NCBI RefSeq assembly: GCF_000003605.2
Contig: NW_003142800.1
Coordinates: forward strand, 52,051 to 82,603
Direction: 5' to 3'
DNA: 30,553 nt
From: Saccoglossus kowalevskii
Lineage: Eukaryota > Hemichordata > Enteropneusta > Harrimaniidae
Of this stretch, positions 1,081-30,553 are shown one piece after another. The translations under genes and the position numbers were made by a program. A model generated the notes under the pieces. The model saw only the letters and a list, made by a program, of their open reading frames with translations. It was not told the origin of the DNA and ran no database searches. Numbering within the stretch: position 1 is the first letter of the stretch; every line of letters starts with the position of its first letter.

Positions 1081-1082
1081 AA

Positions 1083-3732: not shown

Positions 3733-3733
3733 T

Positions 3734-3762
3734 TAATAAATAAATAAATAAATAAATAAATA
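3734..3762. repeat. (TAAA)n microsatellite, LINE 3' tail
   Basis: Six uninterrupted TAAA units lie at 3737-3760, with partial units on each side. On the minus strand this reads (TTTA)n and sits directly downstream of the IWNNLP-containing C-terminal fragment. It is therefore best read as the simple-repeat tail of the LINE copy. Confidence 0.85.
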
Positions 3763-3799
3763 GAACAAAAATAAATGTATTTCAAAATGGAAGAAAAAT

Positions 3800-3945
3800 G
3801 TAAATGTCAAAACTACAATAAATACAACGAAAGTAAATATATTTGGTGTCATTAAATGTTGCTTCAGTTGAACATTGAACGACTTTTTATTATTTATTGG
3901 AAGGTTATTCCATATTTTTGTTTCTTGAAAATTCACAGTAAATTA
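3800..3945 (-). pseudogene. LINE RT C-terminal tail fragment
   Basis: The minus-strand translation contains FQETKIWNNLPINN, then a lysine-rich segment ending in LKQHLM. Many LINE-encoded proteins end with this pattern: W-N-x-L-P, then about 15-20 residues, then a K/L-rich stretch. After it the frame runs into low-complexity F/L/I/Y residues and the microsatellite, so the original stop has been lost or lies in another frame. It is in the same frame as the ADD-box fragment (first-base phase), but most of the sequence between them is missing. Confidence 0.8.
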
Positions 3946-4029
3946 ATCGAAATTAGTTCTTTTTAGGTGATATTATAGATTTGATTTAGTAGAGTGTGGT
4001 ACGCATGCTTGGATAAGAAAAGATTTAGC

Positions 4030-4380
4030 TTACGGGGAAGTTTGTGAATTAAGACAATAAGAGGGGAAATTGTGTTGAGCACCTTTTTGATTATGGGATT
4101 TCCAAGTATGATTGCAATCCATAGTTAAACCAAGACATGTTGCCGTATTTACTTTATTTATGATGGCGCCATTTGTATGTAGCTCAGGTTTATTATTTAA
4201 TTTTGTATGAGCCGACGAGAAATACATGTAGTTAGTTTTATTTGCATTGATTGTGAGATTATTTGATTGGCACCATGCATTGGCGTACATCACATTGGCG
4301 TACAGTGACGATTTATTAAAGGCATGAACAAGATTGGAGTCGTCAGCAATATTAGATTTATCAATATCATTCTGAAATTC
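4030..4380 (-). pseudogene. LINE reverse transcriptase palm/thumb fragment with ADD box
   Basis: The catalytic box reads NIADDSNL (ADD codons near 4339-4347), where active enzymes usually have F/YADD, so the aromatic residue is replaced by isoleucine. About 30 residues downstream comes W-C-Q-S-N-N-L-T-I-N-A-N-K-T, the conserved W...N.L.LN..KT pattern. A LGL-T-M-D...TWK-H segment follows, typical of the region after the palm. Near 4075 the frame shifts, and a recognisable continuation (LNTISPLIVLIHKL) appears in another frame. The upstream part of the palm, including the first catalytic aspartate region, is absent. Confidence 0.87.
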
Positions 4381-4404
4381 AGGCCAAGAAAGACAAGGTT
4401 TGTT

Positions 4405-4680
4405 CTGTACTTCTTACAAAATCCATACTGGTTTCTTTTGATGATCTGGTATTGATCAGTGAATGATCGTAATTGCTAATTAAAATTAAAAAAAAAATGC
4501 TAATAATCTTTAAAATAAAAATAGGTCTATAGCTTCTAGTTTTAGATGGAGATCACTTTGGCAATTTTCAGTTGATCAGGAGATTTAACAAAAATGACTT
4601 CTATGTAATATGCGGCATAAATAAGAAGACAAGACGAAATATAATCTTGGCCACATGATTTATGAGAGCCAATAATTTTC
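4405..4680 (-). pseudogene. LINE reverse transcriptase N-terminal (fingers) fragments
   Basis: Three pieces can be read in order on the minus strand. The first is HKSCGQDYISSCLL, with PDQLKIAKVISI about 30 residues further on, matching the LK..KS.G.D.I...L and P..LK.AKV.PI pattern that opens LINE RT domains. The second is SYRPIFILKIIS in the next frame (YRPI codons around 4520-4531), the NYRPIS.L motif. The third is NQYGFCKKYRTNL at about 4395-4433 in a further frame, the Q.GFR...ST..A motif with its arginine and ST lost. Two frameshifts separate the three pieces. Confidence 0.85.
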
Positions 4681-4910
4681 AATGTTCTTGTTGAGAGGAT
4701 GAGAGAGGTATTTGATTGGGTTAAAAGTGTTATTAATTTTGTTAGCAAGATGTTTCCAAATTTGGGAAAAGAATTAATTAATTGGAGAAGGTAATGGTAG
4801 TAATGTAAACCAGTAATGGTTTCATTGGAACCATTTGGTTTGTGAGGTGTGACAACATACAATCCTTGATAGTTTGCTTTAATGGTTCGGGAGAATAGCT
4901 TATACATGTG
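4681..4910 (-). pseudogene. LINE pre-RT linker, probable
   Basis: On the minus strand, frames here contain NGSNETITGLHYYHY and, in a shifted frame, FFSQIWKHLANKINN. This resembles the I....FNNFFSN.G..LA..I segment that lies just upstream of RT in many LINEs. Sequence similarity is weaker than in the RT fragments. No endonuclease domain is seen further upstream (beyond 4910), so the copy is 5'-truncated, as is usual for LINEs. Confidence 0.6.
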
Positions 4911-4937
4911 CTTTTATAATACCTTTCGTAATCAAAG

Positions 4938-4950
4938 TTTTTTTTTTTTT
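4938..4950. repeat. Poly(T) run, 13 nt
   Basis: An uninterrupted T13 lies just outside the recognised 5' end of the minus-strand LINE remnant. It may be unrelated low-complexity sequence. Confidence 0.8.
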
Positions 4951-5394
4951 GCAAAATAAATAAGATGTACGCTCGCAACTTTTTATTTTGTTATTATCAT
5001 GTTTTGATTACCATATCTTTTTCCTTAAAGGTTCCCTAGGTGAACAATAACAATTCATATTAATAAAATTCATACACAGTATATATCAGATTCGAAGTGT
5101 TTATTACATTAAAATTCCCGAAACGTTAAAATTCAAATTTCAATATATAAACAAAGTTACTAAAATTAACAAATTATTCTAAATAACTCTTCCTCAAAGC
5201 TGTTTGCCCTGTCTTGATATATATAGTTCATCACCCCATCATCAACACATCAACGAGATGCATGAAAGACGCGCGTCGAACGTCTGCCACAAAAATCGAA
5301 CGATTTGATTTTGAACTAGAATTTCTTTATTTCGCAGCTTACATTGACCGGCCGATCTTCGACAGAGGAATATTGCTTTCGAATACCCTTACTT
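4951..5394. other. AT-rich spacer between retroelement remnants
   Basis: No gene is recognised. The small plus-strand frame at 5214-5396 has no family motif and overlaps a slightly CpG-richer stretch. It is most likely chance. Confidence 0.5.
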
Positions 5395-5399
5395 AATCG

Positions 5400-5586
5400 A
5401 AATTGCCTATCATCAAATGTGGACAGCACATTTTTAAGCATGGAAATGTCCCCGAAATACTTTCGCGTTTGTCGAATCCCACGCGATGTTTGACGCGTCT
5501 ACACGCTGTGACCTTTGTTTGTCCTGTTTTTACGTTCGATTTCACGCATAACGTGTGATTCTCGCAGTGAACGGAAAATGGTCTAT
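5400..5586 (-). pseudogene. BEL/Pao-like C-terminal tail fragment, tentative
   Basis: An open minus-strand frame includes CVKSNVKTGQTKVTACRRV. In BEL/Pao proteins the segment after GDLVL..DEN carries a VRSV.VKT...RP pattern, and this piece is compatible with that after a frameshift near 5590. Similarity is modest, so this part could be chance. Confidence 0.4.
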
Positions 5587-5589
5587 TCA

Positions 5590-5724
5590 CACACCAGTTT
5601 TCATGTTTTCATGGACTAGAAGTACCAGATCACCAATGAAAACTTTCTTTTTTGCCTTGCACTGAATCTACCATTCCTGAATTGTTGGCAAGTACTCTGT
5701 ACCCACCATTACAAACTCAGTGGC
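5590..5724 (-). pseudogene. BEL/Pao-like integrase fragment with GDLVLL motif
   Basis: One frame of 45 codons reads ATEFVMVGTEYLPTIQEW, a TAG stop, then KKKVFIGDLVLLVHENMK. It ends at a TGA (5587-5589) where a tryptophan codon TGG would be expected in the family (DEN....W). The spacing between EYL, the W/K region and GDLVL matches the integrase C-terminal region of BEL/Pao elements. Two in-frame stops over such a short, otherwise collinear stretch indicate an old inactivated copy. Confidence 0.75.
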
Positions 5725-5824
5725 AAAAAGTGTTGTTTCTTCTTTTTTGTTGTTTTAATTTCACTCACTGTAAACTGTCATTTTGGTCATAAATGAGTTA
5801 GTGGTTGGTCATCTTAGTTGATCA

Positions 5825-5938
5825 CGCATTAAAAACGTTACCAACGTCAGTGGTTGTCAGTATCTTTTCCACTTCTTCTGTGAATGCGTGTATAGTTTCC
5901 TCATCCACCAATGTGTTTTTCAGTAAAGCTTTAAGATC
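5825..5938 (-). pseudogene. BEL/Pao-like integrase fragment with EVEKIL segment
   Basis: A 38-codon open stretch on the minus strand includes DLKALLKNTLVDEETIHAF followed by TEEVEKIL. In BEL/Pao integrases the stretch downstream of the catalytic core reads roughly ..ALL....L.DE.L.T...EVE.ILN.RPL, and this agrees in order and spacing. It is followed by a TGA (5822-5824) and further stops. It is in a different frame from the GDLVLL fragment, so at least one indel lies between them. The catalytic D,D-35-E core itself is not recognised further upstream. Confidence 0.7.
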
Positions 5939-5940
5939 TT

Positions 5941-7980
5941 TTACATAACTACTTGACTTGCACTTAGGATATTAAAATGCCTCTGGATATTACTTATCAT
6001 TGATAAGACTTTGATTTCATTTAGTAAGCATACATCTATTTTAGTTTGACTCCCGGGAATTGTTTCTATTATTACTGTAGGGTTGTGTAGGTAGTCCTTG
6101 CTGACGAATGAATTGCTACATAGATTGTTTGAAGAAATCTGTGTATAAATCATGGGCCACTTTGATAATAAGAGTCTGGATAGCTAAGCTGGTGAACACA
6201 CGTCCATATCGCCTAATGACACCTCACCTGTACTTGACAAACAGTGGTACAAGATCTGTTTTGGTCACTCACGCGACAGGAAGTTTTTTTTTCATGACAC
6301 TTAATGCATCCCGCAATTACATGCTTTGAACAATCCACAACTGCTGTTGTATCTCAAATAACACTTATGATGATGTGAGGTAATATAATTTGATGTATAA
6401 TAACAAAATAATTTAACACAAATTTGAAAAAAACGAGGATGTCGTTTTAATCAGATTGTGTGCACGCGCACGTAGTATGAAATTTAAACATGCAATGACA
6501 AGTCGATTTAAAAGCATACTAAAATTGCTATCAAAGATAATATATGCAATTAAAATAATAATATTAATAATATATGTAATAATGATATTAAGTCGGCAGG
6601 TAATATGTATTTCTTTGTGACAAATATTTAGTGCCTTTAAATTGTGTGTTTGCAATGTATTTCCAATAAATGACATATTTAATGAAGCAAATATTCAATC
6701 AACAGTATTCAAATTGTAAATGAATTACTACGGAATTAAATTAATATCTGTCAAAGCATCTTTACTATATACCAAATTTGTCCTCATATCATCATGCTGT
6801 ATAGTATTTAATTCTAATAATTTAATGTGTTCCAACAGTTACCGTGTGAAAGAGTACATTTCGTGCGTAGAATAACTAACATTTGCTTTGAGTCTTACTA
6901 AAGAAAATAATATAGTCGAAATCACGTCCATCATGTCTCCGATAATGTATAGTTGAGCGAGTACATGTCAAAGGTTACCAATGATAGGAAAAACAACCAC
7001 AAACAATTTGTTAGCAATCCAAGCTCAAAAAGAACAAACTCTCCTACCATCCCCATCGTCTGTTTCAAATTTTTTGTATTTATCAAAATGTCATTAAACT
7101 GCGTGGAATAAAACCTTCTGTAAATGGTATATAGTTATGCTACGAACTACACTATTTATGTGTGTCGACTAGAACGGTCGATTAAAAAAATTGTATTTGT
7201 TAAGAATAATGTTAGCTCACGATAAACAGATACGCACATATGACTTCTCACGTTACGTTGTTCTTGACGCAGACATATCTTGTGTACGTCAACTATTAAT
7301 TACGTCAACAGTAACACAAGTATACCACATGCCTATTTAGCCATGGAGCGACCTGAAAATAATCTTAGAAGAAATCGTAAATATATTCAAAGCAATTCTT
7401 GACATTTTTGTTATACATATTATAAGATGAGCACGTGTGTATTTATGGGGATAATTTTCAATCAATTGAAGACACAACTGTTAGTACAGAGTATAAATAA
7501 TAAGCTAAACACTGTTGATCGACGCTACGTAATTTATCATGCTCCAAGTGTTGTGGTTAGAAGCGTGGGTGCCACGTAATTGGGAAACTCGTACTCGCTT
7601 GGCAGGCATACTTACACAGAATATAAAATTGAGTTGATGGGGCATTCTTAAAAAAATGAATTCTTCACTAACATTTCTTTAGGTCAACAGATCAAAATGC
7701 ATGAGTATTAACAAATAAATTGATGTAAGAAAGTAAACAACAAACGCTTATTCTAAGTATTAACATAACACTACATATCTTACATATAACGTATAGAGAA
7801 ATCTATTCCATAAATTAGTTTAAACTGAGTTATACTGCGTTTGAATTGATGTGATCATGACAATACTGTAATGACGTAAACACATGTTCATTACTTCACT
7901 AATTAATAACATGATATATATTGGATGAGTTGGTACTGAGTATGACGTCTTTCCTCCTCGTGGGCATCGTCGACCCCTAA
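5941..7980. other. AT-rich non-coding sequence
   Basis: The minus-strand frame at 5941-6153 adjoins the integrase remnant but has no clear family motif. It could be more of the same element, decayed beyond recognition. The frames at 6108-6329 and 6413-6676 look like chance. AT-rich simple sequence (repeats of aat/aata) lies at 6536-6590. At 7286-7310 TACGTCAAC occurs twice within 25 bp. No RNA gene was recognised. Confidence 0.5.
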
Positions 7981-8017
7981 CAACGGAATGGATTATTCCA
8001 TCTACTTACATTTTCAG

Positions 8018-8095
8018 CCATTTGAAACTTGCTGTCACACACAGCGTCCGACACGGAATACAATCATACTCGAAGAAATGTGCTCTTTTATCTTG
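8018..8095 (+). other. Exon-like island flanked by splice-like signals
   Basis: A TTTTCAG acceptor-like site ends at 8017, and a strong donor-like TTG/GTAAGT begins at 8096. The 78 bases between are open in phase 0 (26 codons, starting PFETCCHTQRP). The encoded peptide matches nothing I recognise. In AT-rich DNA such pairs arise by chance, so this is only a candidate internal exon. Confidence 0.18.
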
Positions 8096-8928
8096 GTAAG
8101 TAACATGAAATGGTTATGTCTAACAAGGTGTTCCATATGTGAATGTTTCATCTTGTCATTGTCTAGATGTGCAACATGAACGAGGCGCTGTGTGATTAAA
8201 CTGTACATGACACAGCGTTCAACTACCTAACCATGTTGTCACATCACGAAGTTTAAGTAAACGTGTTACTTATAAATTGTGCATATTTATATTCCAATGT
8301 GCTCCATGCTCCATCAGTGGTCAATTCGAAACTATAGTAGATTATTTCATTACCTATAGAATATTACCTTGTATATTAATTTTCCCCTTTATATATCTCA
8401 ATAATTGTATACATGTTTTTCTGGTGAAATAAATATATCAATTAATCACCGATTACCGCAAAACAGTCGAAATCCGGCTTTCGAAGTCGAGCGAACAAAC
8501 GTCTTCTGATTTCATAAATCTCAAATAATTATGCGTTTCTGTTGTGAATTTTCGGAGTTGCACGAGGTCACACAAAATGATGTTTGACCATTTGTTAAAT
8601 GAAATGGTAATCAGAAAATAACCACTGGATAACTTGCTATTGACTACGATTGAATAGTCATTTCACTTCGATTTTAAACCAACACGAAGTGCTAATATTA
8701 TAATTTTTCGCTCGTTTCACACCACTCCGTCAAACGCATCTTTCCTGCCACTACACTGTATATGTGGATGATTGACTGATTTATTGATGACACTTCTCAA
8801 AACGAGAAACGCACTGAACTGTGCATTGTGTACAAATGTTTGTGTTAATACATGCTCTATTTAATCCAATTGTAGAATGTAGTCGTTATTCATCTCACTA
8901 AAAGAGATTGAAATAATGTGTCACAAGT

Positions 8929-8955
8929 GATAATGATAATAATAATAATAGTAAT
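8929..8955. repeat. (TAA)n-type microsatellite, imperfect
   Basis: The sequence gataatgat continues into five aat/ata units and ends with agtaat. It is a short imperfect trinucleotide repeat. Confidence 0.85.
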
Positions 8956-10176
8956 CGAATCTTGTGTGGATTCTTGTTACCACGTGACCAGAAACACTGT
9001 AGAAATTCAATATATTTACGGGTGACTCACGAATGTACGAATGCGATTATTATATAGACCAATTCATACACGCGTAGAGGCATATGGGACACTTTTAAAT
9101 AAATTATATAAACATTTATTTCTCACGAAAATACGCATCGTACGTATAAGTAAAATTAGCTGAACATTAAACAAAGTGATAACTATGCTGGCGTAAAGCG
9201 TAATGTAATCAGTGTAGATGTAATTGTACGTTAAATTATTGCTACGTTTACACGGCAGCATTCTATTGAAGCCGGACTACTACTCTTCCCATCGAATAAC
9301 AGGAGATTATCTACAATGCGTTTACACGTTCAGGGGCCGAACGAGTTCAATTCAGCTCGATCAGAGACGACCAGCGCCGTCAAATACTTAGTATGAAAAA
9401 ACAACATGGCAAAGTAGTTAGTATGGTCTACTCTTTATGTAAACTTGAAAGGAATAATGGTCTTTTAATGTCTTCAAAGTTGCACGACAGTCCGTCAGGC
9501 ACAACACATACACCCTTCCCGGTTCAACACGAATGGAAAATCAGCCACATGTAATACCATGAAACGGTTTTTATCCCTTGTACAATGACATGCACCCCGG
9601 GTAGTGTTCCACACACAGCTGCAGTTCAATCAGATCACGTGACACATGTACATTCCCGTAGGTGCTGTGCAATCAGTGCCTACACCAATGCATTTACACG
9701 TGGTCGTTTAATCAGGGTGCGTGCCAGGCATATCTACTCCAACATATGGTCTAGTGAAAATACCCATGTGGTAGTACACAATTACCGTATCCGCATATCT
9801 CGTGTTATGACATTATTCGGCTCTTTCTAGCATAAACTAGGTGCGTCAGGATCGAAAATAAATGTATAATTTTGATAATAAAATCATTATACAATGACTT
9901 ACCATTTCAGAATATAGAGCCCTAAAAATGCACATAGCAAAGTCAATGTCGGGTATAACAATAGTTCTGATTGCCAACCAGTAACGCGATGTTTTATATC
10001 TGTACAGTAATAGCATTTTTTGTTTATATTTGATTGTTACTGTGATTAAATTTTATTGGGCACACGTCTTGTGAATGAATTCTGCAAATATATTTGTGAT
10101 ACATAACATAAAAAGCTGCTCCGCTCGTTTTTATCAGTTTATCAGTGGAAAGCGGGACTACTTGTTGATTTCTGGT

Positions 10177-12252: not shown

Positions 12253-12940
12253 CATCATCCTCCTGCTGACATAAGATGCATCACCATCTTACTGATGACA
12301 CAGGATGTACCACCATCTCACTGATGACACAGGATGGATCATCATCTTACTGATGACCCAGGATGCATCATCATCTCACTGATGACACAGGATGCATCAT
12401 CATCTTACTGATGACACAGGATGTGACATCATCTTACTGATGACAAGGATGTACCACCATCTCACTGATGACACAGGATGCATCATCATCTTACTGATGA
12501 CACAGGATGCATCATCATCTCACTGATGACACAGAATGTATCATCATCTCACTGATGACACAGGATGTACCATCATCTCACTGATGGCACAGGATGCATC
12601 ATCATCTTACTGATGACACAGGATGTACCATCATCTTACTGATGACACAGGATGTACTACCATCTCACTGATGACAGAGGATGCATCATCATCTCACTGA
12701 TGACCCAGGATGCATCATCACCTTACTGATGACACATGATGTATCATCATCTTACTGATGACACAGGATGTACCATCATCTTACTGATGACACAGAATGT
12801 ACCATCATCTTACTGATGACACAGGATGTACCACCATCTTACTGAGTACACAGGATGCATCATCATCTCACTGATGACACATGATGCATTATTATCTTAC
12901 TGATGACACAGGATGTACCACCATCTTACTGATGACACAT
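12253..12940. repeat. Left edge of the array, irregular units
   Basis: The first unit is strongly diverged (catcatcctcctgctgac, then ataagatg). Units up to the gap show scattered private changes: a 28-bp unit with gatgtgaca near 12420, one ending gatgacaagg, agaatgtatc near 12534, and gatggcac near 12584. I see no long-period repetition of variant order in this part. This is the usual picture of an array edge, where exchange no longer homogenises units. Confidence 0.7.
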
Positions 12941-13693
12941 NNNNNNNNNNNNNNNNNNNNNNNNNNNNNNNNNNNNNNNNNNNNNNNNNNNNNNNNNNNN
13001 NNNNNNNNNNNNNNNNNNNNNNNNNNNNNNNNNNNNNNNNNNNNNNNNNNNNNNNNNNNNNNNNNNNNNNNNNNNNNNNNNNNNNNNNNNNNNNNNNNNN
13101 NNNNNNNNNNNNNNNNNNNNNNNNNNNNNNNNNNNNNNNNNNNNNNNNNNNNNNNNNNNNNNNNNNNNNNNNNNNNNNNNNNNNNNNNNNNNNNNNNNNN
13201 NNNNNNNNNNNNNNNNNNNNNNNNNNNNNNNNNNNNNNNNNNNNNNNNNNNNNNNNNNNNNNNNNNNNNNNNNNNNNNNNNNNNNNNNNNNNNNNNNNNN
13301 NNNNNNNNNNNNNNNNNNNNNNNNNNNNNNNNNNNNNNNNNNNNNNNNNNNNNNNNNNNNNNNNNNNNNNNNNNNNNNNNNNNNNNNNNNNNNNNNNNNN
13401 NNNNNNNNNNNNNNNNNNNNNNNNNNNNNNNNNNNNNNNNNNNNNNNNNNNNNNNNNNNNNNNNNNNNNNNNNNNNNNNNNNNNNNNNNNNNNNNNNNNN
13501 NNNNNNNNNNNNNNNNNNNNNNNNNNNNNNNNNNNNNNNNNNNNNNNNNNNNNNNNNNNNNNNNNNNNNNNNNNNNNNNNNNNNNNNNNNNNNNNNNNNN
13601 NNNNNNNNNNNNNNNNNNNNNNNNNNNNNNNNNNNNNNNNNNNNNNNNNNNNNNNNNNNNNNNNNNNNNNNNNNNNNNNNNNNNNNNNNNNNN
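12941..13693. other. Assembly gap (753 N) inside the array
   Basis: The run of N is flanked on both sides by array units. True sequence length there is unknown. 753 is one less than 26 units of 29 bp, which may be coincidence. Confidence 0.99.
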
Positions 13694-14308
13694 CACAGGA
13701 TGTACCATCATCTTACTGAGTACATAGGATGCATCATCATCTTACTGATGACACAGGATGCATCATCATCTTACTGAGTACACAGGATGTACCACCATCT
13801 TAATGATGACACAGGATGTACCACCATCTCACTGATGACACAGGATGTACCACCATCTTACTGATGACACAGGATGCATCATCATCTCACTGATGACACA
13901 GGATGCATCATCATTTTACTGATGACACAGGATGTACCACCATCTTACTGAGTACACAGTATGTACCATCATCTTACTGAGTACACAGGATGTACCATCA
14001 TCTCACTGATGACACAGGATGTACCATCATCTTACTGATGACACAGGATGTACCACCATCTTACTGATGACACAGGATGCATCACCATCTTACTGATGAC
14101 ACAGGATGTACCATCATCTTACTGATGACACAGGATGTACCATCATCTTAATCATGACACAGGATGTACAATCATCTCACTGATGACACAGGATGCATTA
14201 TTATCTCACTGATGACACAGGATGCATCATCATCTTACTGATGACACAGGATGCATCATCATCTTACTGATGACACAGGATGTTCATCATCTTACTGATG
14301 ACACAGGA

Positions 14309-17176
14309 TGTACCATCATCTTACTGATGACACAGGATGCATTATTATCTCACTGATGACACAGGATGCATCATCATCTTACTGATGACACAGGATGCAT
14401 CATCATCTTACTGATGACACAGGATTCATCAACATCTCACTGAAGACACAGGATGCATCATCATCTTACTGATGACACAGGATGTCCATCATCTTACTGA
14501 TGACACAGGATGTACCATCATCTTACTGATGACACAGGATGTACCACCATCTTACTGATGACACAGGATGCATCACCATCTTACTGATGACACAGGATGT
14601 ACCATCATCTTACTTATGACACAGGATGTACCACCATCGTACTGAGTACATAGGATGCATCATCATCTTACTGATGACACAGGATGCATCATCATCTTAC
14701 TGAGTACACAGGATGTACCACCATCTTAATGATGACACAGGATGTACCATCATCTTACTGATGACACAGGATGCATCATCATCTTACTGATGACACAGGA
14801 TGTACCATCATCTTACTGATGACACAGGATGCATTATTATCTCACTGATGACACAGGATGCATCATCATCTTACTGATGACACAGGATGTACCATCATCT
14901 TACTGATGACACAGGATGTACCACCATCTTACTGATGACACAGGATGCATCACCATCTTACTGATGACACAGGATGTACCATCATCTTACTTATGACACA
15001 GGATGTACCACCATCGTACTGAGTACATAGGATGCATCATCATCTTACTGATGACACAGGATGCATCATCATCTTACTGAGTACACAGGATGTACCACCA
15101 TCTTAATGATGACACAGGATGTACCATCATCTTACTGATGACACAGGATGCATCATCATCTTACTGATGACACAGGATGTACCATCATCTTACTGATGAC
15201 ACAGGATGCATTATTATCTCACTGATGACACAGGATGCATCATCATCTTACTGATGACACAGGATGTACCATCATCTTACTGATGACACAGGATGCATTA
15301 TTATCTCACTGATGACACAGGATGCATCATCATCTTACTGATGACACAGGATGCATCATCATCTTACTGATGACACAGGATTCATCAACATCTCACTGAA
15401 GACACAGGATGCATCATCATCTTACTGATGACACAGGATGTCCATCATCTTACTGATGACACAGGATGTACCATCATCTTACTGATGACACAGGATGTAC
15501 CACCATCTTACTGATGACACAGGATGCATCACCATCTTACTGATGACACAGGATGTACCATCATCTTACTTATGACACAGGATGTACCACCATCGTACTG
15601 AGTACATAGGATGCATCATCATCTTACTGATGACACAGGATGCATCATCATCTTACTGAGTACACAGGATGTACCACCATCTTAATGATGACACAGGATG
15701 TACCATCATCTTACTGATGACACAGGATGCATCATCATCTTACTGATGACACAGGATGTACCATCATCTTACTGATGACACAGGATGCATTATTATCTCA
15801 CTGATGACACAGGATGCATCATCATCTTACTGATGACACAGGATGTACCATCATCTTACTGATGACACAGGATGTACCACCATCTTACTGATGACACAGG
15901 ATGCATCACCATCTTACTGATGACACAGGATGTACCATCATCTTACTTATGACACAGGATGTACCACCATCGTACTGAGTACATAGGATGCATCATCATC
16001 TTACTGATGACACAGGATGCATCATCATCTTACTGAGTACACAGGATGTACCACCATCTTAATGATGACACAGGATGTACCATCATCTTACTGATGACAC
16101 AGGATGCATCATCATCTTACTGATGACACAGGATGTACCATCATCTTACTGATGACACAGGATGCATTATTATCTCACTGATGACACAGGATGCATCATC
16201 ATCTTACTGATGACACAGGATGTACCATCATCTTACTGATGACACAGGATGCATTATTATCTCACTGATGACACAGGATGCATCATCATCTTACTGATGA
16301 CACAGGATGCATCATCATCTTACTGATGACACAGGATTCATCAACATCTCACTGAAGACACAGGATGCATCATCATCTTACTGATGACACAGGATGTCCA
16401 TCATCTTACTGATGACACAGGATGTACCATCATCTTACTGATGACACAGGATGTACCACCATCTTACTGATGACACAGGATGCATCACCATCTTACTGAT
16501 GACACAGGATGTACCATCATCTTACTTATGACACAGGATGTACCACCATCTTACTGAGTACATAGGATGCATCATCATCTTACTGATGACACAGGATGCA
16601 TCATCATCTTACTGAGTACACAGGATGTACCACCATCTTAATGATGACACAGGATGTACCATCATCTTACTGATGACACAGGATGCATCATCATCTTACT
16701 GATGACACAGGATGTACCATCATCTTACTGAGTACACAGGATGCATCATCATCTTACTGATGACACAGGATGCATCATCATCTTACTGATGACACAGGAT
16801 GTACCATCATCTTACTGATGACACAGGATGTACCACCATCTTACTGATGACACAGGATGCATCACCATCTTACTGATGACACAGGATGTACCATCATCTT
16901 ACTTATGATACAGGATGTACCACCATCTTACTGAGTACATAGGATGCATCATCATCTTACTGATGACACAGGATGCATCATCATCTTACTGAGTACACAG
17001 GATGTACCACCATCTTAATGATGACACAGGATGTACCATCATCTTACTGATGACACAGGATGCATCATCATCTTACTGATGACACAGGATGTACCATCAT
17101 CTTACTGAGTACACAGGATGCATCATCATCTTACTGATGACACAGGATGCATCATCATCTTACTGATGACACATGA
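14309..17176. repeat. Three consecutive 956-bp higher-order repeats (33-mers)
   Basis: The distinctive unit gattcatcaacatctc ending ctgaagac starts at 14423, 15379 and 16335, exactly 956 bp apart. That is 33 units less one base, because one unit (gatgtccatc) is 28 bp. Copies 1 (14309-15264) and 2 (15265-16220) agree at every place I compared, including the rare ccatcgtactg at about 14636 and 15592. Copy 3 is more diverged: it has catcttactg there, and its last units carry ctgagtac and catcatcatc where copies 1 and 2 have ctgatgac and cattattatc. Inside each copy the unit with cttatgac recurs after 377 bp (13 units), leaving 579 bp (20 units). Confidence 0.92.
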
Positions 17177-19408
17177 TGGACCATCATCTTAATGATGACA
17201 CAGGATGTACCATCATCTTACTGATGACACAGGATGCATCATCATCTCACTGATGACACAGGATGCTTCATCATCTCACTGCTGACACAGGATGTACCAC
17301 CATCTTATTGAGTACACAGGATGCATCATCATCTTACTGATGACACAGGATGTCTATCATCTTACTGATGACACAGGATGTACCATCATCTTACTGGTGA
17401 CACAGGATGTACCACCATCTTACTGATGACACAGGATGCATCACCATCTTACTGAGTACACAGTATGTACCACCATCTTAATGATGACACAGGATGTACC
17501 ATCATCTTACTGATGACACAGGATGCATCATCATCTTACTGATGACACAGGCTGTACCATCATCTTACTGAGTACATAGGATGCATCATCATCTTACTGA
17601 TGACACAGGATGCATCATCATCTTACTGATGACACAGGATGTTACCATCATCTTACTGATGACACAGGATGTACCAACCATCTTACTGAGTACATAGGAT
17701 GCATCATCATCATACTGATGACACAGGATGCATCATCATCTTACTGAGTACACAGGATGTACCACCATCTTAATGATGACACAGGATGTACCATCATCTT
17801 ACTGATGACACAGGATGCATCATCATCTTACTGATGACACAGGATGTACCATCATCTTACTGAGTACACAGGATGCATCATCATCTTACTGATGACACAG
17901 GATGCATCATCATCTTACTGATGACACAGGATGTACCATCATCTTACTGATGACACAGGATGTACCACCATCTTACTGATGACACAGGATGCATCACCAT
18001 CTTACTGATGACACAGGATGTACCATCATCTTACTTATGATACAGGATGTACCACCATCTTACTGAGTACATAGGATGCACCATCATCTTACTGATGACA
18101 CAGGATGCATCATCATCTTACTGAGTACACAGGATGTACCACCATCTTAATGATGACACAGGATGTACCATCATCTTACTGATGACACAGGATGCATCAT
18201 CATCTTACTGATGACACAGGATGTACCATCATCTTACTGAGTACATAGGATGCATCATCATCTTACTGATGACACAGGATGCATCACCATCTTACTGATG
18301 ACACAGGATGTACCATCATCTTACTGATGACACAGGATGTACCATCATCTTAATGGTGACACAGGATGTACCAACATCTTAATGATGACACAGGATGCAT
18401 CATCATCTTAATCATGACACAGGATGTACCATCATCTCACTGATGACACAGGATGCATTATTATCTCACTGATGACACAGGATGCATCATCATCTTACTG
18501 ATGACACAGGATGCATCAACATCTCACCGATGACACAGGATGCATCATCATCTTACTGATGACACAGGATGTACCACCATCTCACTGATGACACAGGATG
18601 CATCATCATCTTACTCATGACACAGGATGTACTACCATCTCACTGATGGTACAGGATGCATCATCATCTTACTGATGACACAGGATGTACCATGATCTTA
18701 CTGATGACACAGGATGTACCACCATCTTACTGAGTACACAGGATGCATCATCATCTTACTGATGACACAGGATGTACCATCATCTTACTGAGTACATAGG
18801 ATGCATCATCATCTTACTGATGACACAGGATGCATCATCATCTTACTGAGTACACAGGATGTACCACCATCTTAATGATGACACAGGATGTACCACCATC
18901 TCACTGATGACACAGGATGTACCACCATCTTAATGATGACACAGGATGCATCATCATCTCACTGATGACACAGGATGCATCATCATTTTACTGATGACAC
19001 AGGATGTACCACCATCTTACTGAGTACACAGGATGTACCATCATCTTACTGAGTACACAGGATGTACCATCATCTCACTGATGACACAGGATGTACCATC
19101 ATCTTACTGATGACACAGGATGTACCACCATCTTACTGATGACACAGGATGCATCACCATCTTACTGATGACACAGGATGTACCATCATCTTACTGATGA
19201 CACAGGATGTACCATCATCTTAATGGTGACACAGGATGTACCATCATCTTAATGATGACACAGGATGCATCATCATCTTAATCATGACACAGGATGTACC
19301 ATCATCTCACTGATGACACAGGATGCATTATTATCTCACTGATGACACAGGATGCATCATCATCTTACTGATGACACAGGATGCATCATCATCTTACTGA
19401 TGACACAG

Positions 19409-20566
19409 GATTCATCAACATCTCACTGAAGACACAGGATGCATCATCATCTTACTGATGACACAGGATGTCCATCATCTTACTGATGACACAGGATGTA
19501 CCATCATCTTACTGATGACACAGGATGTACCACCATCTTACTGATGACACAGGATGCATCACCATCTTACTGATGACACAGGATGTACCATCATCTTACT
19601 TATGACACAGGATGTACCACCATCTTACTGAGTACATAGGATGCATCATCATCTTACTGATGACACAGGATGCATCATCATCTTACTGAGTACACAGGAT
19701 GTACCACCATCTTAATGATGACACAGGATGTACCATCATCTTACTGATGACACAGGATGCATCATCATCTTACTGATGACACAGGATGTACCATCATCTT
19801 ACTGATGACACAGGATGCATTATTATCTCACTGATGACACAGGATGCATCATCATCTTACTGATGACACAGGATGTACCATCATCTTACTGATGACACAG
19901 GATGCATTATTATCTCACTGATGACACAGGATGCATCATCATCTTACTGATGACACAGGATGCATCATCATCTTACTGATGACACAGGATTCATCAACAT
20001 CTCACTGAAGACACAGGATGCATCATCATCTTACTGATGACACAGGATGTCCATCATCTTACTGATGACACAGGATGTACCATCATCTTACTGATGACAC
20101 AGGATGTACCACCATCTTACTGATGACACAGGATGCATCACCATCTTACTGATGACACAGGATGTACCATCATCTTACTTATGACACAGGATGTACCACC
20201 ATCTTACTGAGTACATAGGATGCATCATCATCTTACTGATGACACAGGATGTACCACCATCTTACTGATGACACAGGATGCATCACCATCTTACTGATGA
20301 CACAGGATGTACCATCATCTTACTTATGACACAGGATGTACCACCATCTTACTGAGTACATAGGATGCATCATCATCTTACTGATGACACAGGATGCATC
20401 ATCATCTTACTGAGTACACAGGATGTACCACCATCTTAATGATGACACAGGATGTACCATCATCTTACTGATGACACAGGATGCATCATCATCTTACTGA
20501 TGACACAGGATGTACCATCATCTTACTGAGTACACAGGATGCATCATCATCTTACTGATGACACAG
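19409..20566. repeat. 579-bp (20-mer) higher-order tandem pair
   Basis: The gattcatcaac/ctgaagac unit occurs at 19409 and again at 19988, 579 bp apart. The following units run in the same order in both copies for several hundred bases: gtccatc, gtaccatc, gtaccaccatc, catcaccatc, cttatgac, gagtacatag. The same 579-bp step appears between 23235 and 23814, and inside the 956-bp repeats. The second copy shortens after about 20240. Confidence 0.75.
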
Positions 20567-21909
20567 GATGCATCATCATCTTACTGATGACACAGGATGT
20601 ACCATCATCTTACTGATGACACAGGATGTACCACCATCTTACTGATGACACAGGATGCATCACCATCTTACTGATGACACAGGATGTACCATCATCTTAC
20701 TTATGATACAGGATGTACCACCATCTTACTGAGTACATAGGATGCACCATCATCTTACTGATGACACAGGATGCATCATCATCTTACTGAGTACACAGGA
20801 TGTACCACCATCTTAATGATGACACAGGATGTACCATCATCTTACTGATGACACAGGATGCATCATCATCTTACTGATGACACAGGATGTACCATCATCT
20901 TACTGAGTACATAGGATGCATCATCATCTTACTGATGACACAGGATGCATCATCATCTTACTGAGTACACAGGATGTACCACCATTTAATGATGACACAG
21001 GATGTACCACCATCTCATTGATGACACAGGATGTACCACCATCTTAATGATGACACAGGATGCATCATCATCTCACTGATGACACAGGATGCATCATCAT
21101 TTTACTGATGACACAGGATGTACCACCATCTTACTGAGTACACAGGATGTACCATCATCTTACTGAGTACACAGGATGTACCATCATCTCACTGATGACA
21201 CAGGATGTACCATCATCTTACTGATGACACAGGATGTACCACCATCTTACTGATGACACAGGATGCATCACCATCTTACTGATGACACAGGATGTACCAT
21301 CATCTTACTGATGACACAGGATGTACCATCATCTTAATGGTGACACAGGATGTACCATCATCTTAATGATGACACAGGATGCATCATCATCTTAATCATG
21401 ACACAGGATGTACCATCATCTTACTGATGACACAGGATGCATTATTATCTCACTGATGACACAGGATGCATCATCATCTTACTGATGACACAGGATGTAC
21501 CATCATCTTACTGATGACACAGGATGCATTATTATCTCACTGATGACACAGGATGCATCATCATCTTACTGATGACACAGGATGCATCATCATCTTACTG
21601 ATGACACAGGATTCATCAACATCTCACTGAAGACACAGGATGCATCATCATCTTACTGATGACACAGGATGTCCATCATCTTACTGATGACACAGGATGT
21701 ACCATCATCTTACTGATGACACAGGATGTACCACCATCTTACTGATGACACAGGATGCATCACCATCTTACTGATGACACAGGATGTACCATCATCTTAC
21801 TTATGACACAGGATGTACCACCATCTTACTGAGTACATAGGATGCATCATCATCTTACTGATGACACAGGATGCATCATCATCTTACTGAGTACACAGGA
21901 TGTACCACC

Positions 21910-23380
21910 ATCTTAATGATGACACAGGATGTACCATCATCTTACTGATGACACAGGATGCATCATCATCTTACTGATGACACAGGATGTACCATCATCT
22001 TACTGAGTACACAGGATGCATCATCATCTTACTGATGACACAGGATGCATCATCATCTTACTGATGACACAGGATGTACCATCATCTTAGTGATGACACA
22101 GGATGTACCATCATCTTACTGATGACACAGGATGTACCACCATCTTACTGATGACACAGGATGCATCACCATCTTACTGATGACACAGGATGTACCATCA
22201 TCTTACTTATTATACAGGATGTACCACCATCTTACTGAGTACATAAGGATGCACCATCATCTTACTGATGACACAGGATGCATCATCATCTTACTGAGTA
22301 CACAGGATGTACCACCATCTTAATGATGACCACAGGATGTACCATCATTTTACTGATGACACAGGATGCATCATCATCTTACTGATGACACAGGATGTAC
22401 CATCATCTTACTGAGTACATAGGATGCATCATCATCTTACTGATGACACAGGATGTACCATCATCTTACTGATGACACAGGATGTACCATCATCTTAATG
22501 GTGACACAGGATGTACCAACATCTTAATGATGACACAGGATGCATCATCATCTTACTGATGACACAGGATGTACCATCATCTTACTGAGTACACAGGATG
22601 CATCATCATCTTACTGATGACACAGGATGCATCATCATCTTACTGATGACACAGGATGTACCATCATCTTACTGATGACACAGGATGTACCATCATCTTA
22701 CTGATGACACAGGATGTACCACCATCTTACTGATGACACAGGATGCATCACCATCTTACTGATGACACAGGATGTACCATCATCTTACTGATGACACCGG
22801 ATGTACCATCATCTTAATGGTGACACAGGATGCATCATCATCTCACTGATGACACAGGATGCTTCATCATCTTACTGATGACACAGGATGTACCATCATC
22901 TCACTGCTGACACAGGATGTACCATCATCTTACTGATGACACAGGATGTACCACCATCTTACTGATGACACAGGATGCATCACCATCTTACTGATGACAC
23001 AGGATGTACCATCATCTTACTGATGACACAGGATGTACCATCATCTTAATGGTGACACAGGATGTATCATCATCTTAATGATGACACAGGATGCATCATC
23101 ATCTTAATCATGACACAGGATGTACCATCATCTCACTGATGACACAGGATGCATTATTATCTCACTGATGACACAGGATGCATCATCATCTTACTGATGA
23201 CACAGGATGCATCATCATCTTACTGATGACACAGGATTCATCAACATCTCACTGATGACACAGGATGCATCATCATCTTACTGATGACACAGGATGTCTA
23301 TCATCTTACTGATGACACAGGATGTACCATCATCTTACTGATGACACAGGATGTACCACCATCTTACTGATGACACAGGA
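21910..23380. repeat. Block A, repeated 2144 bp downstream
   Basis: Rare markers recur exactly 2144 bp later: ttaatg 21913/24057, gtac 22007/24151, ttagtg 22087/24231, ttattatac 22207/24351, the ccgg unit 22797/24941, and gattc 23235/25379. Copy A has two extra bases (gtacataagg near 22244 and gatgaccac near 22327). Copy B balances this with a 2-base longer unit (gtacaaacgg near 24859), so the spacing is restored. The match covers about 1.47 kb and ends by about 23380. Confidence 0.85.
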
Positions 23381-24053
23381 TGCATCACCATCTTACTTAT
23401 GACACAGGATGTACCATCATCTTACTTATGACACAGGATGTACCACCATCTTACTGAGTACATAGGATGCATCATCATCTTACTGATGACACAGGATGCA
23501 TCATCATCTTACTGAGTACACAGGATGTACCACCATCTTAATGATGACACAGGATGTACCATCATCTTACTGATGACACAGGATGCATCATCATCTTACT
23601 GATGACACAGGATGTACCATCATCTTACTGATGACACAGGATGCATTATTATCTCACTGATGACACAGGATGCATCATCATCTTACTGATGACACAGGAT
23701 GTACCATCATCTTACTGATGACACAGGATGCATTATTATCTCACTGATGACACAGGATGCATCATCATCTTACTGATGACACAGGATGCATCATCATCTT
23801 ACTGATGACACAGGATTCATCAACATCTCACTGAAGACACAGGATGCATCATCATCTTACTGATGACACAGGATGTACCATCATCTTCCTGAGTACACAG
23901 GATGCACCATAATCTTACTGATGACCCAGGATGCATCATCATCTCACTGATGACACAGGATGTACCACCATCTCACTGATGACACAGGATGCATCATCTT
24001 ACTGATGACACAGGATGCATCATCATCTCACTGATGACACAGAATGTATCATC

Positions 24054-25520
24054 ATCTTAATGATGACACAGGATGTACCATCATCTTACTGATGACACAG
24101 GATGCATCATCATCTTACTGATGACACAGGATGTACCATCATCTTACTGAGTACACAGGATGCATCATCATCTTACTGATGACACAGGATGCATCATCAT
24201 CTTACTGATGACACAGGATGTACCATCATCTTAGTGATGACACAGGATGTACCATCATCTTACTGATGACACAGGATGTACCACCATCTTACTGATGACA
24301 CAGGATGCATCACCATCTTACTGATGACACAGGATGTACCATCATCTTACTTATTATACAGGATGTACCACCATCTTACTGAGTACATAGGATGCACCAT
24401 CATCTTACTGATGACACAGGATGCATCATCATCTTACTGAGTACACAGGATGTACCACCATCTTAATGATGACACAGGATGTACCATCATTTTACTGATG
24501 ACACAGGATGCATCATCATCTTACTGATGACACAGGATGTACCATCATCTTACTGAGTACATAGGATGCATCATCATCTTACTGATGACACAGGATGTAC
24601 CATCATCTTACTGATGACACAGGATGTACCATCATCTTAATGGTGACACAGGATGTACCAACATCTTAATGATGACACAGGATGCATCATCATCTTACTG
24701 ATGACACAGGATGTACCATCATCTTACTGAGTACACAGGATGCATCATCATCTTACTGATGACACAGGATGCATCATCATCTTACTGATGACACAGGATG
24801 TACCATCATCTTACTGATGACACAGGATGTACCATCATCTTACTGATGACACAGGATGTACAAACGGATCTTACTGATGACACAGGATGCATCACCATCT
24901 TACTGATGACACAGGATGTACCATCATCTTACTGATGACACCGGATGTACCATCATCTTAATGGTGACACAGGATGCATCATCATCTCACTGATGACACA
25001 GGATGCTTCATCATCTTACTGATGACACAGGATGTACCATCATCTCACTGCTGACACAGGATGTACCATCATCTTACTGATGACACAGGATGTACCACCA
25101 TCTTACTGATGACACAGGATGCATCACCATCTTACTGATGACACAGGATGTACCATCATCTTACTGATGACACAGGATGTACCATCATCTTAATGGTGAC
25201 ACAGGATGTATCATCATCTTAATGATGACACAGGATGCATCATCATCTTAATCATGACACAGGATGTACCATCATCTCATTGATGACACAGGATGCATTA
25301 TTATCTCACTGATGACACAGGATGCATCATCATCTTACTGATGACACAGGATGCATCATCATCTTACTGATGACACAGGATTCATCAACATCTCACTGAT
25401 GACACAGGATGCATCATCATCTTACTGATGACACAGGATGTCTATCATCTTACTGATGACACAGGATGTACCATCATCTTACTGGTGACACAGGATGTAC
25501 CACCATCTTACTGATGACAC
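24054..25520. repeat. Block B, partner of the block at 21910
   Basis: This is the second copy of the 2144-bp displaced block. It contains the only unit of its kind in the window, gtacaaacggatc at about 24859, 31 bp long, where other copies have gtaccaccatc. The right part of this block is itself copied again further right (displacement 3302, later 3563). Confidence 0.83.
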
Positions 25521-25748
25521 AGGATGCATCACCATCTTACTGAGTACACAGGATGTACCATCATCTTACTGATGACACAGGATGCATCATCATCTTACTG
25601 ATGACACAGGCTGTACCATCATCTTACTGAGTACATAGGATGCATCATCATCTTACTGATGACACAGGATGCTTGATCATCTTACTGATGACACAGGATG
25701 TACCATCATCTCACTGCTGACACAGGATGTACCATCATCTTACTGATG

Positions 25749-27950
25749 ACACAGGATGTACCACCATCTTACTGATGACACAGGATGCATCACCATCTTA
25801 CTGATGACACAGGATGTACCATCATCTTACTGATGACACAGGATGTACCATCATCTTAATGGTGACACAGGATGTATCATCATCTTAATGATGACACAGG
25901 ATGCATCATCATCTTAATCATGACACAGGATGTACCATCATCTCACTGATGACACAGGATGCATTATTATCTCACTGATGACACAGGATGCATCATCATC
26001 TTACTAATGACACAGGATGCATCATCATCTTACTGATGACACAGGATTCATCAACATCTCACTGATGACACAGGATGCATCATCATCTTACTGATGACAC
26101 AGGATGTCTATCATCTTACTGATGACACAGGATGTACCATCATCTTACTGGTGACACAAGATGTACCACCATCTTACTGATGACACAGGATGCATCACCA
26201 TCTTACTGAGTACACAGGATGTACCATCATCTTACTGATGACACAGGATGCATCATCATCTTACTGATGACACAGGCTGTACCATCATCTTACTGAGTAC
26301 ATAGGATGCATCATCATCTTACTGATAACACAGGATGCTTCATCATCTTACTGATGACACAGGATGTACCATCATCTTACTGATGATACAGGATGTACCA
26401 TCATCTTACTGATGACACAAGATGTACCACCATCTTACTGATGACACAGGATGCATCACCATCTTACTGATGACACAGGATGTACCATCATCTTACTTAT
26501 GACACAGGATGTACCACCATCTTACTGAGTACATAGGATGCATCATCATCTTACTGATGACACAGGATGCATCATCATCTTACTGAGTACACAGGATGTA
26601 CCACCATCTTAATGATGACACAGGATGTACCATCATCTTACTGATGACACAGGATGCATCATCATCTTACTGATGACACAGGATGTACCATCATCTTACT
26701 GAGTACACAGGATGCATCATCATCTTACTGATGACACAGGATGCATCATCATCTTACTGATGACACATGATGGACCATCATCTTAATGATGACACAGGAT
26801 GTACCATCATCTTACTGATGACACAGGATGCATCATCATCTCACTGATGACACAGGATGTACCACCATCTTACTGATGACACAGGATGCATCACCATCTT
26901 ACTGATGACACAGGATGTACCATCATCTTACTGATGACACAGGATGTACCATCATCTTAATGGTGACACAGGATGTATCATCATCTTAATGATGACACAG
27001 GATGCATCATCATCTTAATCATGACACAGGATGTACCATCATCTCACTGATGACACAGGATGCATTATTATCTCACTGATGACACAGGATGCATCATCAT
27101 CTTACTAATGACACAGGATGCATCATCATCTTACTGATGACACAGGATTCATCAACATCTCACTGATGACACAGGATGCATCATCATCTTACTGATGACA
27201 CAGGATGTCTATCATCTTACTGATGACACAGGATGTACCATCATCTTACTGGTGACACAAGATGTACCACCATCTTACTGATGACACAGGATGCATCACC
27301 ATCTTACTGAGTACACAGGATGTACCATCATCTTACTGATGACACAGGATGCATCATCATCTTACTGATGACACAGGCTGTACCATCATCTTACTGAGTA
27401 CATAGGATGCATCATCATCTTACTGATAACACAGGATGCTTCATCATCTTACTGATGACACAGGATGTACCATCATCTTACTGATGATACAGGATGTACC
27501 ATCATCTTACTGATGACACAAGATGTACCACCATCTTACTGATGACACAGGATGCATCACCATCTTACTGATGACACAGGATGTACCATCATCTTACTTA
27601 TGACACAGGATGTACCACCATCTTACTGAGTACATAGGATGCATCATCATCTTACTGATGACACAGGATGCATCATCATCTTACTGAGTACACAGGATGT
27701 ACCACCATCTTAATGATGACACAGGATGTACCATCATCTTACTGATGACACAGGATGCATCATCATCTTACTGATGACACAGGATGTACCATCATCTTAC
27801 TGAGTACACAGGATGCATCATCATCTTACTGATGACACAGGATGCATCATCATCTTACTGATGACACATGATGGACCATCATCTTAATGATGACACAGGA
27901 TGTACCATCATCTTACTGATGACACAGGATGCATCATCATCTCACTGATG
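25749..27950. repeat. 1101-bp (38-mer) tandem duplication
   Basis: Two adjacent copies (about 25749-26849 and 26850-27950) share a series of otherwise rare changes exactly 1101 bp apart: ctaatg 26003/27104, gattc 26045/27146, caggctg 26276/27377, ctgataac 26325/27426, gcttc 26337/27438, gatgatac 26382/27483, cacaag 26418/27519 and catgatgg 26766/27867. The ctaatg and ctgataac changes are seen in these two copies only. This makes them the most recent large duplication that can be read in the window. Confidence 0.92.
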
Positions 27951-28189
27951 ACACAGGATGCTTCATCATCTCACTGCTGACACAGGATGTACCACCATCT
28001 TATTGAGTACACAGGATGCATCATCATCTTACTGATGACACAGGATGTCTATCATCTTACTGATGACACAGGATGTACCATCATCTTACTGGTGACACAG
28101 GATGTACCACCATCTTACTGATGACACAGGATGCATCACCATCTTACTGATGACACAGGATGTACCACCATCTTACTGAGCACACAGGA

Positions 28190-30414
28190 TGCATCACCAT
28201 CTTACTGATGACACAGGATGTACCATCATCTTACTGATGACACCGGATGTACCATCATCTTAATGGTGACACAGGATGCATCATCATCTCACTGATGACA
28301 CAGGATGCTTCATCATCTTACTGATGACACAGGATGTACCATCATCTCACTGCTGACACAGGATGTACCATCATCTTACTGATGACACAGGATGTACCAC
28401 CATCTTACTGATGACACAGGATGCATCACCATCTTACTGATGACACAGGATGTACCATCATCTTACTGATGACACAGGATGTACCATCATCTTAATGGTG
28501 ACACAGGATGTATCATCATCTTAATGATGACACAGGATGCATCATCATCTTAATCATGACACAGGATGTACCATCATCTCACTGATGACACAGGATGTAC
28601 CATCATCTCACTGCTGACACAGGATGTACCATCATCTTACTGATGACACAGGATGTACCACCATCTTACTGATGACACAGGATGCATCACCATCTTACTG
28701 ATGACACAGGATGTACCATCATCTTACTGATGACACAGGATGTACCATCATCTTAATGGTGACACAGGATGTATCATCATCTTAATGATGACACAGGATG
28801 CATCATCATCTTAATCATGACACAGGATGTACCATCATCTCACTGATGACACAGGATGCATTATTATCTCACTGATGACACAGGATGCATCATCATCTTA
28901 CTGATGACACAGGATGCATCATCATCTTACTGATGACACAGGATTCATCAACATCTCACTGATGACACAGGATGCATCATCATCTTACTGATGACACAGG
29001 ATGTCTATCATCTTACTGATGACACAGGATGTACCATCATCTTACTGGTGACACAGGATGTACCACCATCTTACTGATGACACAGGATGCATCACCATCT
29101 TACTGAGTACACAGGATGTACCATCATCTTACTGATGACACAGGATGCATCATCATCTTACTGATGACACAGGCTGTACCATCATCTTACTGAGTACATA
29201 GGATGCATCATCATCTTACTGATGACACAGGATGCTTGATCATCTTACTGATGACACAGGATGTACCATCATCTCACTGCTGACACAGGATGTACCATCA
29301 TCTTACTGATGACACAGGATGTACCACCATCTTACTGATGACACAGGATGCATCACCATCTTACTGATGACACAGGATGTACCATCATCTTACTGATGAC
29401 ACAGGATGTACCATCATCTTAATGGTGACACAGGATGTATCATCATCTTAATGATGACACAGGATGCATCATCATCTTAATCATGACACAGGATGTACCA
29501 TCATCTCACTGATGACACAGGATGCATTATTATCTCACTGATGACACAGGATGCATCATCATCTTACTGATGACACAGGATGCATCATCATCTTACTGAT
29601 GACACAGGATTCATCAACATCTCACTGATGACACAGGATGCATCATCATCTTACTGATGACACAGGATGTCTATCATCTTACTGATGACACAGGATGTAC
29701 CATCATCTTACTGGTGACACAAGATGTACCACCATCTTACTGATGACACAGGATGCATCACCATCTTACTGAGTACACAGGATGTACCATCATCTTACTG
29801 ATGACACAGGATGCATCATCATCTTACTGATGACACAGGCTGTACCATCATCTTACTGAGTACATAGGATGCATCATCATCTTACTGATGACACAGGATG
29901 CTTCATCATCTTACTGATGACACAGGATGTACCATCATCTTACTGATGATACAGGATGTACCATCATCTTACTGATGACACAAGATGTACCACCATCTTA
30001 CTGATGACACAGGATGCATCACCATCTTACTGATGACACAGGATGTACCATCATCTTACTTATGACACAGGATGTACCACCATCTTACTGAGTACATAGG
30101 ATGCATCATCATCTTACTGATGACACAGGATGCATCATCATCTTACTGAGTACACAGGATGTACCACCATCTTAATGATGACACAGGATGTACCATCATC
30201 TTACTGATGACACAGGATGCATCATCATCTTACTGATGACACAGGATGTACCATCATCTTACTGAGTACACAGGATGCATCATCATCTTACTGATGACAC
30301 AGGATGCATCATCATCTTACTGATGACACATGATGGACCATCATCTTAATGATGACACAGGATGTACCATCATCTTACTGATGACACAGGATGCATCATC
30401 ATCTCACTGATGAC
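28190..30414. repeat. Displaced copy of about 24890-26850 with a 261-bp insertion
   Basis: Markers from about 24890 recur here, at first with displacement 3302 (ccgg 24941/28243) and later with 3563. Examples of the later spacing are gattc 25379/28942 and 26045/29608, caggctg 25610/29173 and 26276/29839, gatgatac 26382/29945, and catgatgg 26766/30329. The change of 261 bp is exactly nine units. It is explained by a local duplication seen as two ctgctgac units 261 bp apart (28351 and 28612). Confidence 0.88.
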
Positions 30415-30553
30415 ACAGGATGCTTCATCATCTCACTGCTGACACAGGATGTACCACCATCTTATTGAGTACACAGGATGCATCATCATCTTACTGATGA
30501 CACAGGATGTCTATCATCTTACTGATGACACAGGATGTACCATCATCTTACTG

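Follow-up and report, generated by a model that had tools for sequence, protein, structure and literature searches.

One locus of the Saccoglossus kowalevskii assembly holds a non-coding giant minisatellite, a tandem array of 29-bp units whose layered higher-order repetition is real in the assembled sequence, where adjacent, nested duplications of whole-unit blocks carry differing numbers of differences. We consider it likely that this one locus was grown and renewed by out-of-register homologous recombination between sister chromatids or alleles.

Results

The window, by which we mean the whole 30,553-nt stretch of DNA that was analysed, belongs to a contig of 365,692 bases in a 572-Mb assembly of 4830 contigs. 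TRF found the array at 12253-12939 and 13694-30553 of the window. Wrap-around alignment to the consensus cut the left piece into 24 units and the right piece into 583 (2 partial); 558 of the 583 parsed right-piece units are exactly 29 bp long, and the G+C content of the array is ~41%. The main array sits between N runs of 753 and 4558 bases, the second of which begins right at the window end and is followed by ~7 further degenerate units and then by non-tandem DNA. Non-tandem DNA flanks the locus on both sides within its 366-kb contig. With its N runs the locus measures ~23 kb, and the 10-kb stretch upstream of the window is all N.

Table 1. Position of the array, its block duplications and a flanking feature in the window.
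Feature	Positions	Strand	Remarks
Left edge piece	12253-12940	+	23 whole degenerate units and 1 cut off; without higher-order repeat
Run of 753 N	12941-13693		separates left piece from main array; assembly gap or withheld stretch
Main array	13694-30553	+	581 whole ~29-bp units and 2 partial; 73 distinct types; ends at window end
33-unit (956-bp) repeat, three copies	14285-17152	+	starts 14285, 15241, 16197; exact over 1311 bp at lag 956
13-unit (377-bp) tandem duplication	14487-15240	+	nested in 33-unit repeat, again in second copy (15443-16225)
74-unit (2144-bp) duplication	21935-25529	+	matching segment 50 of 74 units; 8 differences in 1451 bp
23-unit (666-bp) duplication	25038-26311	+	also in later copy 28601-29903
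38-unit (1101-bp) duplication	25762-27934	+	0 differences in 1072 bp
85-unit (2462-bp) duplication	25038-30553	+	second copy from 28601, cut off at contig end
Possible decayed LINE-type reverse transcriptase remnant, outside array	3736-4913	-	broken frames in left flank, judged by eye

A 29-bp unit falls within the range of about 9-100 bp given for minisatellites (PMC2599865), and a discrete locus of ~23 kb, the only one in the assembly, falls within the roughly 0.5-30 kb given for their arrays (PMC8122249). A 26-place unit pattern had 309 exact matches in the whole assembly, all in the window and 0 on the reverse strand, a count of exact matches only, which mismatched copies elsewhere would escape; with an 87-base query, only this contig appeared among the matches listed. 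The abundance at many loci expected of a centromeric satellite was therefore not found in a search that covered exact copies in assembled, N-free sequence. As there is one locus in the assembly, "minisatellite" fits better than "satellite", a label that the initial annotation had used loosely.

Higher-order repetition was assessed by coding each of the 581 whole units of the main array as a letter according to its exact sequence; 23 of the unit types were seen once. All nine offsets at which unit order had been claimed to repeat were recovered as diagonals of identical units, with best runs of 14 units at 377 bp (13 units), 14 at 579 bp (20 units), 15 at 666 bp (23 units), 45 at 956 bp (33 units; the longest exact run of all), 37 at 1101 bp (38 units), 13 at 2144 bp (74 units), 22 at 2462 bp (85 units), 13 at 3302 bp (114 units; the sole run of at least 4 at this offset) and 24 at 3563 bp (123 units). 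Each offset is a whole number of units minus 0-4 bases, as had been stated. Two qualifications apply. The repetition, ascribed to all of 12253-30553, holds for the main array, but that span also takes in the N run and the left piece, whose 23 whole units share with the main array a longest common run of 2 units, equal to the null of 50 permutations. Moreover, although each offset is real, the nine are not independent and are partly sums of one another: 377+579=956 bp (13+20=33 units), 1101+2462=3563 bp (38+85=123 units), and 74+114=188 units, also an observed lag. Equally strong offsets, e.g. 5275, 3653, 4609, 2666 and 10695 bp, were absent from the original list.

The observed runs far exceed those of randomised arrays. 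Exact runs of at least 8 units numbered 75, against 0 in 200 unit shuffles, in which the longest run was 6 units as compared with 45 in the array. A first-order Markov null (100 strings), which contains the repeats because it was trained on the array string itself, gave longest runs with a mean of 10.9 and a maximum of 16, and ~11 runs of at least 8 units. In a scored search that tolerated mismatches, 67 segments scored at least 10, against a permutation maximum of 6.0 (30 shuffles). At the base level, the longest exact repeats in two 10-kb parts of the array were 1311 bp (at the 956-bp lag) and 1118 bp (at the 1101-bp lag), as opposed to 63-80 bp when 29-bp chunks were shuffled three times per part. 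Blocks are also more alike than the units inside them, which is the mark of higher-order repetition: divergence between copies is 0-0.55% in the five segments with the highest scores, while random unit pairs differ on average at 3.18 of 29 positions (~11%).

The individual duplications listed in Table 1 can be partly ordered in time. The 13-unit duplication shows 0 differences in 406 bp at lag 13 in both of its places, and since two copies of the 33-unit block contain it, the 13-unit event came earlier; the first and third copies of that block differ at 8 positions in 898 bp. By the same reasoning the 23-unit duplication, whose copies differ at 3 positions in 608 bp at one site and at 1 in 637 bp at the other, preceded the 85-unit duplication, both copies of which contain it. 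The 85-unit copies differ at 3 positions in 1796 bp at lag 3563 and at 2 in 1216 bp at lag 2462. As the stretch past the 38-unit insertion matches at lag 85, the 3563-bp (123-unit) offset most plausibly reflects an 85-unit duplication, the first copy of which gained a later 38-unit duplication. Judged by its absence of differences, the 38-unit duplication is the youngest of its region; its presence in one 85-unit copy only likewise makes it the last event.

A greedy parse that tolerates mismatching units collapsed the array from 581 to 292 units by undoing adjacent duplications of 38, 85, 33, 33, 74, 13 and 13 units, compared with 0 events in 20 permutations; the two 13-unit events, with scores of 8 and 6, lie close to the null. 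In this parse 289 of the 581 units, roughly half of the sequenced core, can be accounted for by seven duplications of adjacent blocks 13-85 units (0.4-2.5 kb) in length, and 543 of the 581 units fall within a block copy. Gapped alignments at lags of ~126-132, 159-182 and 248 units, with 0.2-0.8% differences, reveal older layers. Many block copies are non-adjacent, at lags of up to 467 units (for example, 19 units with one difference at a lag of 13157 bp). An older regular sub-period was considered and rejected: the 292 units left after collapse show scattered lags (z -5.4 at 119, -4.3 at 60, -4.1 at 77, -3.4 at 20 and 96) and no single ancestral block.

Block events match the array better than single-unit events. 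Identity between neighbouring units (lag 1) was 0.029, against 0.065 expected (sd 0.0096), and 0 of 2000 permutations were as low; simulated single-unit growth gave 0.56-0.85 (two settings, three seeds each). Growth unit by unit would set like beside like, and identity below chance therefore contradicts it. Together with the seven adjacent duplications, this bears out the earlier proposal of local segment duplication over unit-by-unit expansion. Under the lower mutation setting, simulated blocks with a mean of 30 units reached longest runs of 45-73 units, with lag-1 identities of 0.13-0.16, above that observed. With the higher mutation setting and blocks of 30 or 60 units, lag-1 identities were 0.002-0.029 and the longest runs 15, 28, 35, 40, 164 and 25 units. 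Simulations with blocks averaging 30 or 60 units produced 93-227 unit types, against 73 in the array. Among these unfitted settings none matched every observed statistic, as either lag-1 identity was too high or, in most seeds, runs were shorter.

The units carry two complex markers, TG/GT at positions 15-16 and TAC/CAT at positions 27-29, and every one of their four combinations is seen (in 223, 199, 33 and 41 units); of 105 variant-site pairs, 25 show all four, each in at least 3 units. Exchange would produce this pattern, which could also arise by recurrent mutation. The array has a homogenised core between two degenerate edges: among the 581 core units, 521 are matched by an exact twin lying over 130 units off, whereas an exact twin in the core was found for 11 of the 23 whole units at the left edge and for 0 of the 6 full units at the right edge. 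A homogenised core with degenerate edges is expected when out-of-register exchange acts less at the ends.

Long block repeats are not peculiar to the 29-bp locus, since other short-unit arrays of the genome also hold long repeats above their nulls. The control sample consisted of the first 10 kb of 20 contigs, 4 of them wholly and 5 partly N; because selection went by contig number and took in many short contigs, repeats are over-represented in it. Tandem repeats with a TRF score of at least 100 were present in 14 of the 16 remaining contigs, and the exact-repeat test covered six of the longest arrays. The longest exact repeat was 523 bp in a 66-bp-unit array (shuffle maximum 79 bp), 339 bp in a 50-bp-unit array (69 bp) and 830 bp in an 86-bp-unit array (205 bp), and runs of at least 200 bp occurred at 18, 2 (a weak case) and 23 lags, respectively, as compared with 34 and 28 in the two parts of the window array. 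Three tRNA or 5S rRNA gene arrays exceeded their nulls by less (438/257, 294/243 and 240/147 bp). The 29-bp locus thus has the strongest block repetition of the arrays tested.

Several of the control stretches are of interest in themselves. Three 10-kb stretches consist almost wholly of 66-bp (G000:C200), 50-bp (G000:C400) and 86-bp (G000:C1900) satellite, with an additional period of 332 bp in the first and of 150 bp in the second. Positions 1-10000 of G000:C3800 form a tandem 5S rRNA gene array with a 216-bp period and 46 Rfam matches, and G000:C500 and G000:C2500 carry tandem arrays of tRNA genes with periods of ~261-262 bp and many copies per 10 kb.

A coding tandem repeat was rejected, as no open frame of at least 100 codons runs through sequenced units; of five such frames in the window, the three in the array all cross the N run (translation table 11). 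Searches of the window for structured RNAs and tRNAs gave 0 Rfam matches at the gathering score and 0 ARAGORN genes. For this reason we dropped the idea that CTGATGA resembles a hammerhead core or C box. Pfam searches of 9 window frames and 10 right-flank frames gave 0 matches above the cut-off. Sub-threshold matches in the window were to RVT_1, DUF7113 (E 0.0012) and DUF5463; those in the right flank were to Ig_3 (E 0.0047) and DUF3566. The RVT_1 match (E 0.029, 14.5 bits against a Pfam cut-off of 29.6) covers 4033-4413, a piece of the possible remnant in Table 1, whose LINE label and extent are putative. An AATA run lies at 3719-3762 beside these broken frames, which by eye resemble the end of a LINE-type reverse transcriptase. 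Inspection by eye showed that two short stretches of the window, 1081-1130 and 2803-2840, resemble each other around a GGCC(A/G)CCAGGTGTCA-like motif and run in opposite directions; they are possibly parts of a dispersed repeat.

Discussion

Our favoured mechanism, homologous recombination between sister chromatids or alleles paired out of register, would expand and renew the array. The pathway may be unequal exchange, or synthesis-dependent strand annealing (SDSA), in which break repair would copy a block from a misaligned repeat before re-annealing. Each event would duplicate ~13-85 neighbouring units adjacent to the source block; later events would land inside or across earlier ones, and the blocks would for that reason be nested. 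Point mutations would label units between events, and the array edges would take part less and decay. An unequal crossover model was reportedly set out by Smith in 1976.

Work on minisatellites bears on this choice in several ways. SDSA has been put forward for MS32, MS205 and CEB1, while in blood simple duplications and deletions are described as common (PMC2599865). Variant maps have been treated with multi-copy duplication models (WAMI), with slippage suggested for short segments and exchange or conversion for long ones (PMC2897807). It has also been argued that array-intrinsic unequal crossover or slippage is not the main process in human minisatellites, where events are mostly conversion-like with polar gains at one end (PMC3356730). 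By analogy, this polar, conversion-like view would count against plain unequal crossover here.

The initial annotation had named unequal exchange or slippage without choosing. Block duplication stands; the two processes are not fully separable, and block sizes of 0.4-2.5 kb favour recombination over slippage. We infer, on that ground, that recombination made the blocks, and our view of the pathway is of the same kind. Replication slippage, or fork template switching within one chromatid without exchange between molecules, would also yield adjacent duplications, and a 5-bp stem can form in each unit. Such events are nevertheless an unlikely source of the array: its blocks would be long for slippage by the distinction cited above (PMC2897807), the single-unit form is contradicted by lag-1 identity, and hairpin-driven slippage was rejected because the single-strand unit fold is no better than that of shuffled sequence (z -0.22 to -1.33).

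The main doubt concerns the assembly. An assembler might have duplicated or mis-joined repeat contigs, or placed one allele after the other, and some of the longest duplications would then be its product. Since nothing but repeat lies between the N runs, unit order may be partly wrong; the second 85-unit copy runs into the contig end, and the two youngest duplications, exact over more than 1.1 kb, could be assembler errors. Several others have differences of their own (8 in 1854 bp, 8 in 1451 bp and 3 in 1796 bp) and are consistently nested, and 75 exact runs over many lags are too varied for a single mis-join. Other arrays of the assembly have long repeats too, though an assembler fault could hit all of them. 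On balance we regard an artefact of this kind as rather improbable.

Recombination between misaligned copies, our preferred reading, has to accommodate the non-adjacent block copies, for which later insertions and deletions, or copying at a distance, are needed. The evidence is one allele of one individual, in which no duplication event is seen happening. Speculatively, frequent long-range conversion or template jumping, over up to 13 kb within the array, may keep a private minisatellite in constant block turnover. We give this idea little credence; were it correct, the activity might be genome-wide, as other short-unit arrays of the genome hold long block repeats too. Excision of repeat circles, rolling-circle amplification and reinsertion of the multimers could give tandem blocks of any length and distant copies, but the collapse shows two or three copies per block rather than long runs of one block, and the array is confined to a single locus of the assembly, which makes this route very improbable. 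Least credible is a centromeric or other dispersed satellite with higher-order repeats kept by selection or drive, a reading that, despite the typical occurrence of such repeats in alpha satellite (PMC5615363, PMC8122249), is largely contradicted in this assembly by the 309 of 309 exact pattern matches within the window, the non-tandem DNA on both sides and the lack of a dominant block length.

Minisatellites such as the human MS32 are the nearest known kind. Like the array, MS32 (D1S8), MS205 and CEB1 have interspersed variant units at one locus and undergo duplications and deletions (PMC2599865, PMC3510502). MS32, which is mapped by its variants, also shares the 29-bp unit length (PMC3510502). 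Unlike the array, with its ~41% G+C and a single known sequence, MS32 is GC-rich and its instability has been measured. A 16-base core of the 29-bp unit was not found in the literature searched.

Higher-order blocks on a short unit have precedents. Arabidopsis telomeric variants with a 7-bp unit form higher-order repeats that are called typical of minisatellites, and their growth and shrinkage are attributed to slippage and unequal crossing over (PMC11406999); they lie at chromosome ends and are of telomeric origin, whereas the array is internal to its contig. The ape subterminal satellite pCht has a nearly equal unit length (32 bp) and variant-based block types (PMC12758386). It differs from the array in its millions of copies at many chromosome ends and in that the types described for it are 20-kbp blocks grouped by variant content rather than ordered-unit repeats (PMC12758386). 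The earlier claim that such repetition is less usual over a 29-bp unit is less supported in view of the 7-bp precedent (PMC11406999) and of the long repeats in other arrays of this genome.

In alpha satellite, as in the array, several diverged units are copied jointly as a block. Its 171-bp unit is centromeric, and one block length dominates over long stretches; the array, by contrast, has many block lengths and no sign of a centromere.

We propose no host function, and no finding here needs one. Block-in-block growth is an expected mode of evolution for such DNA, and the picture of how minisatellites are known to evolve stays unchanged. The array preserves nested block duplications with unusual clarity, so that their sizes and part of their succession in time can be read. 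Should long reads bear this out, the locus would offer a good natural test of models for how tandem repeats grow, including block size, adjacency and edge decay.
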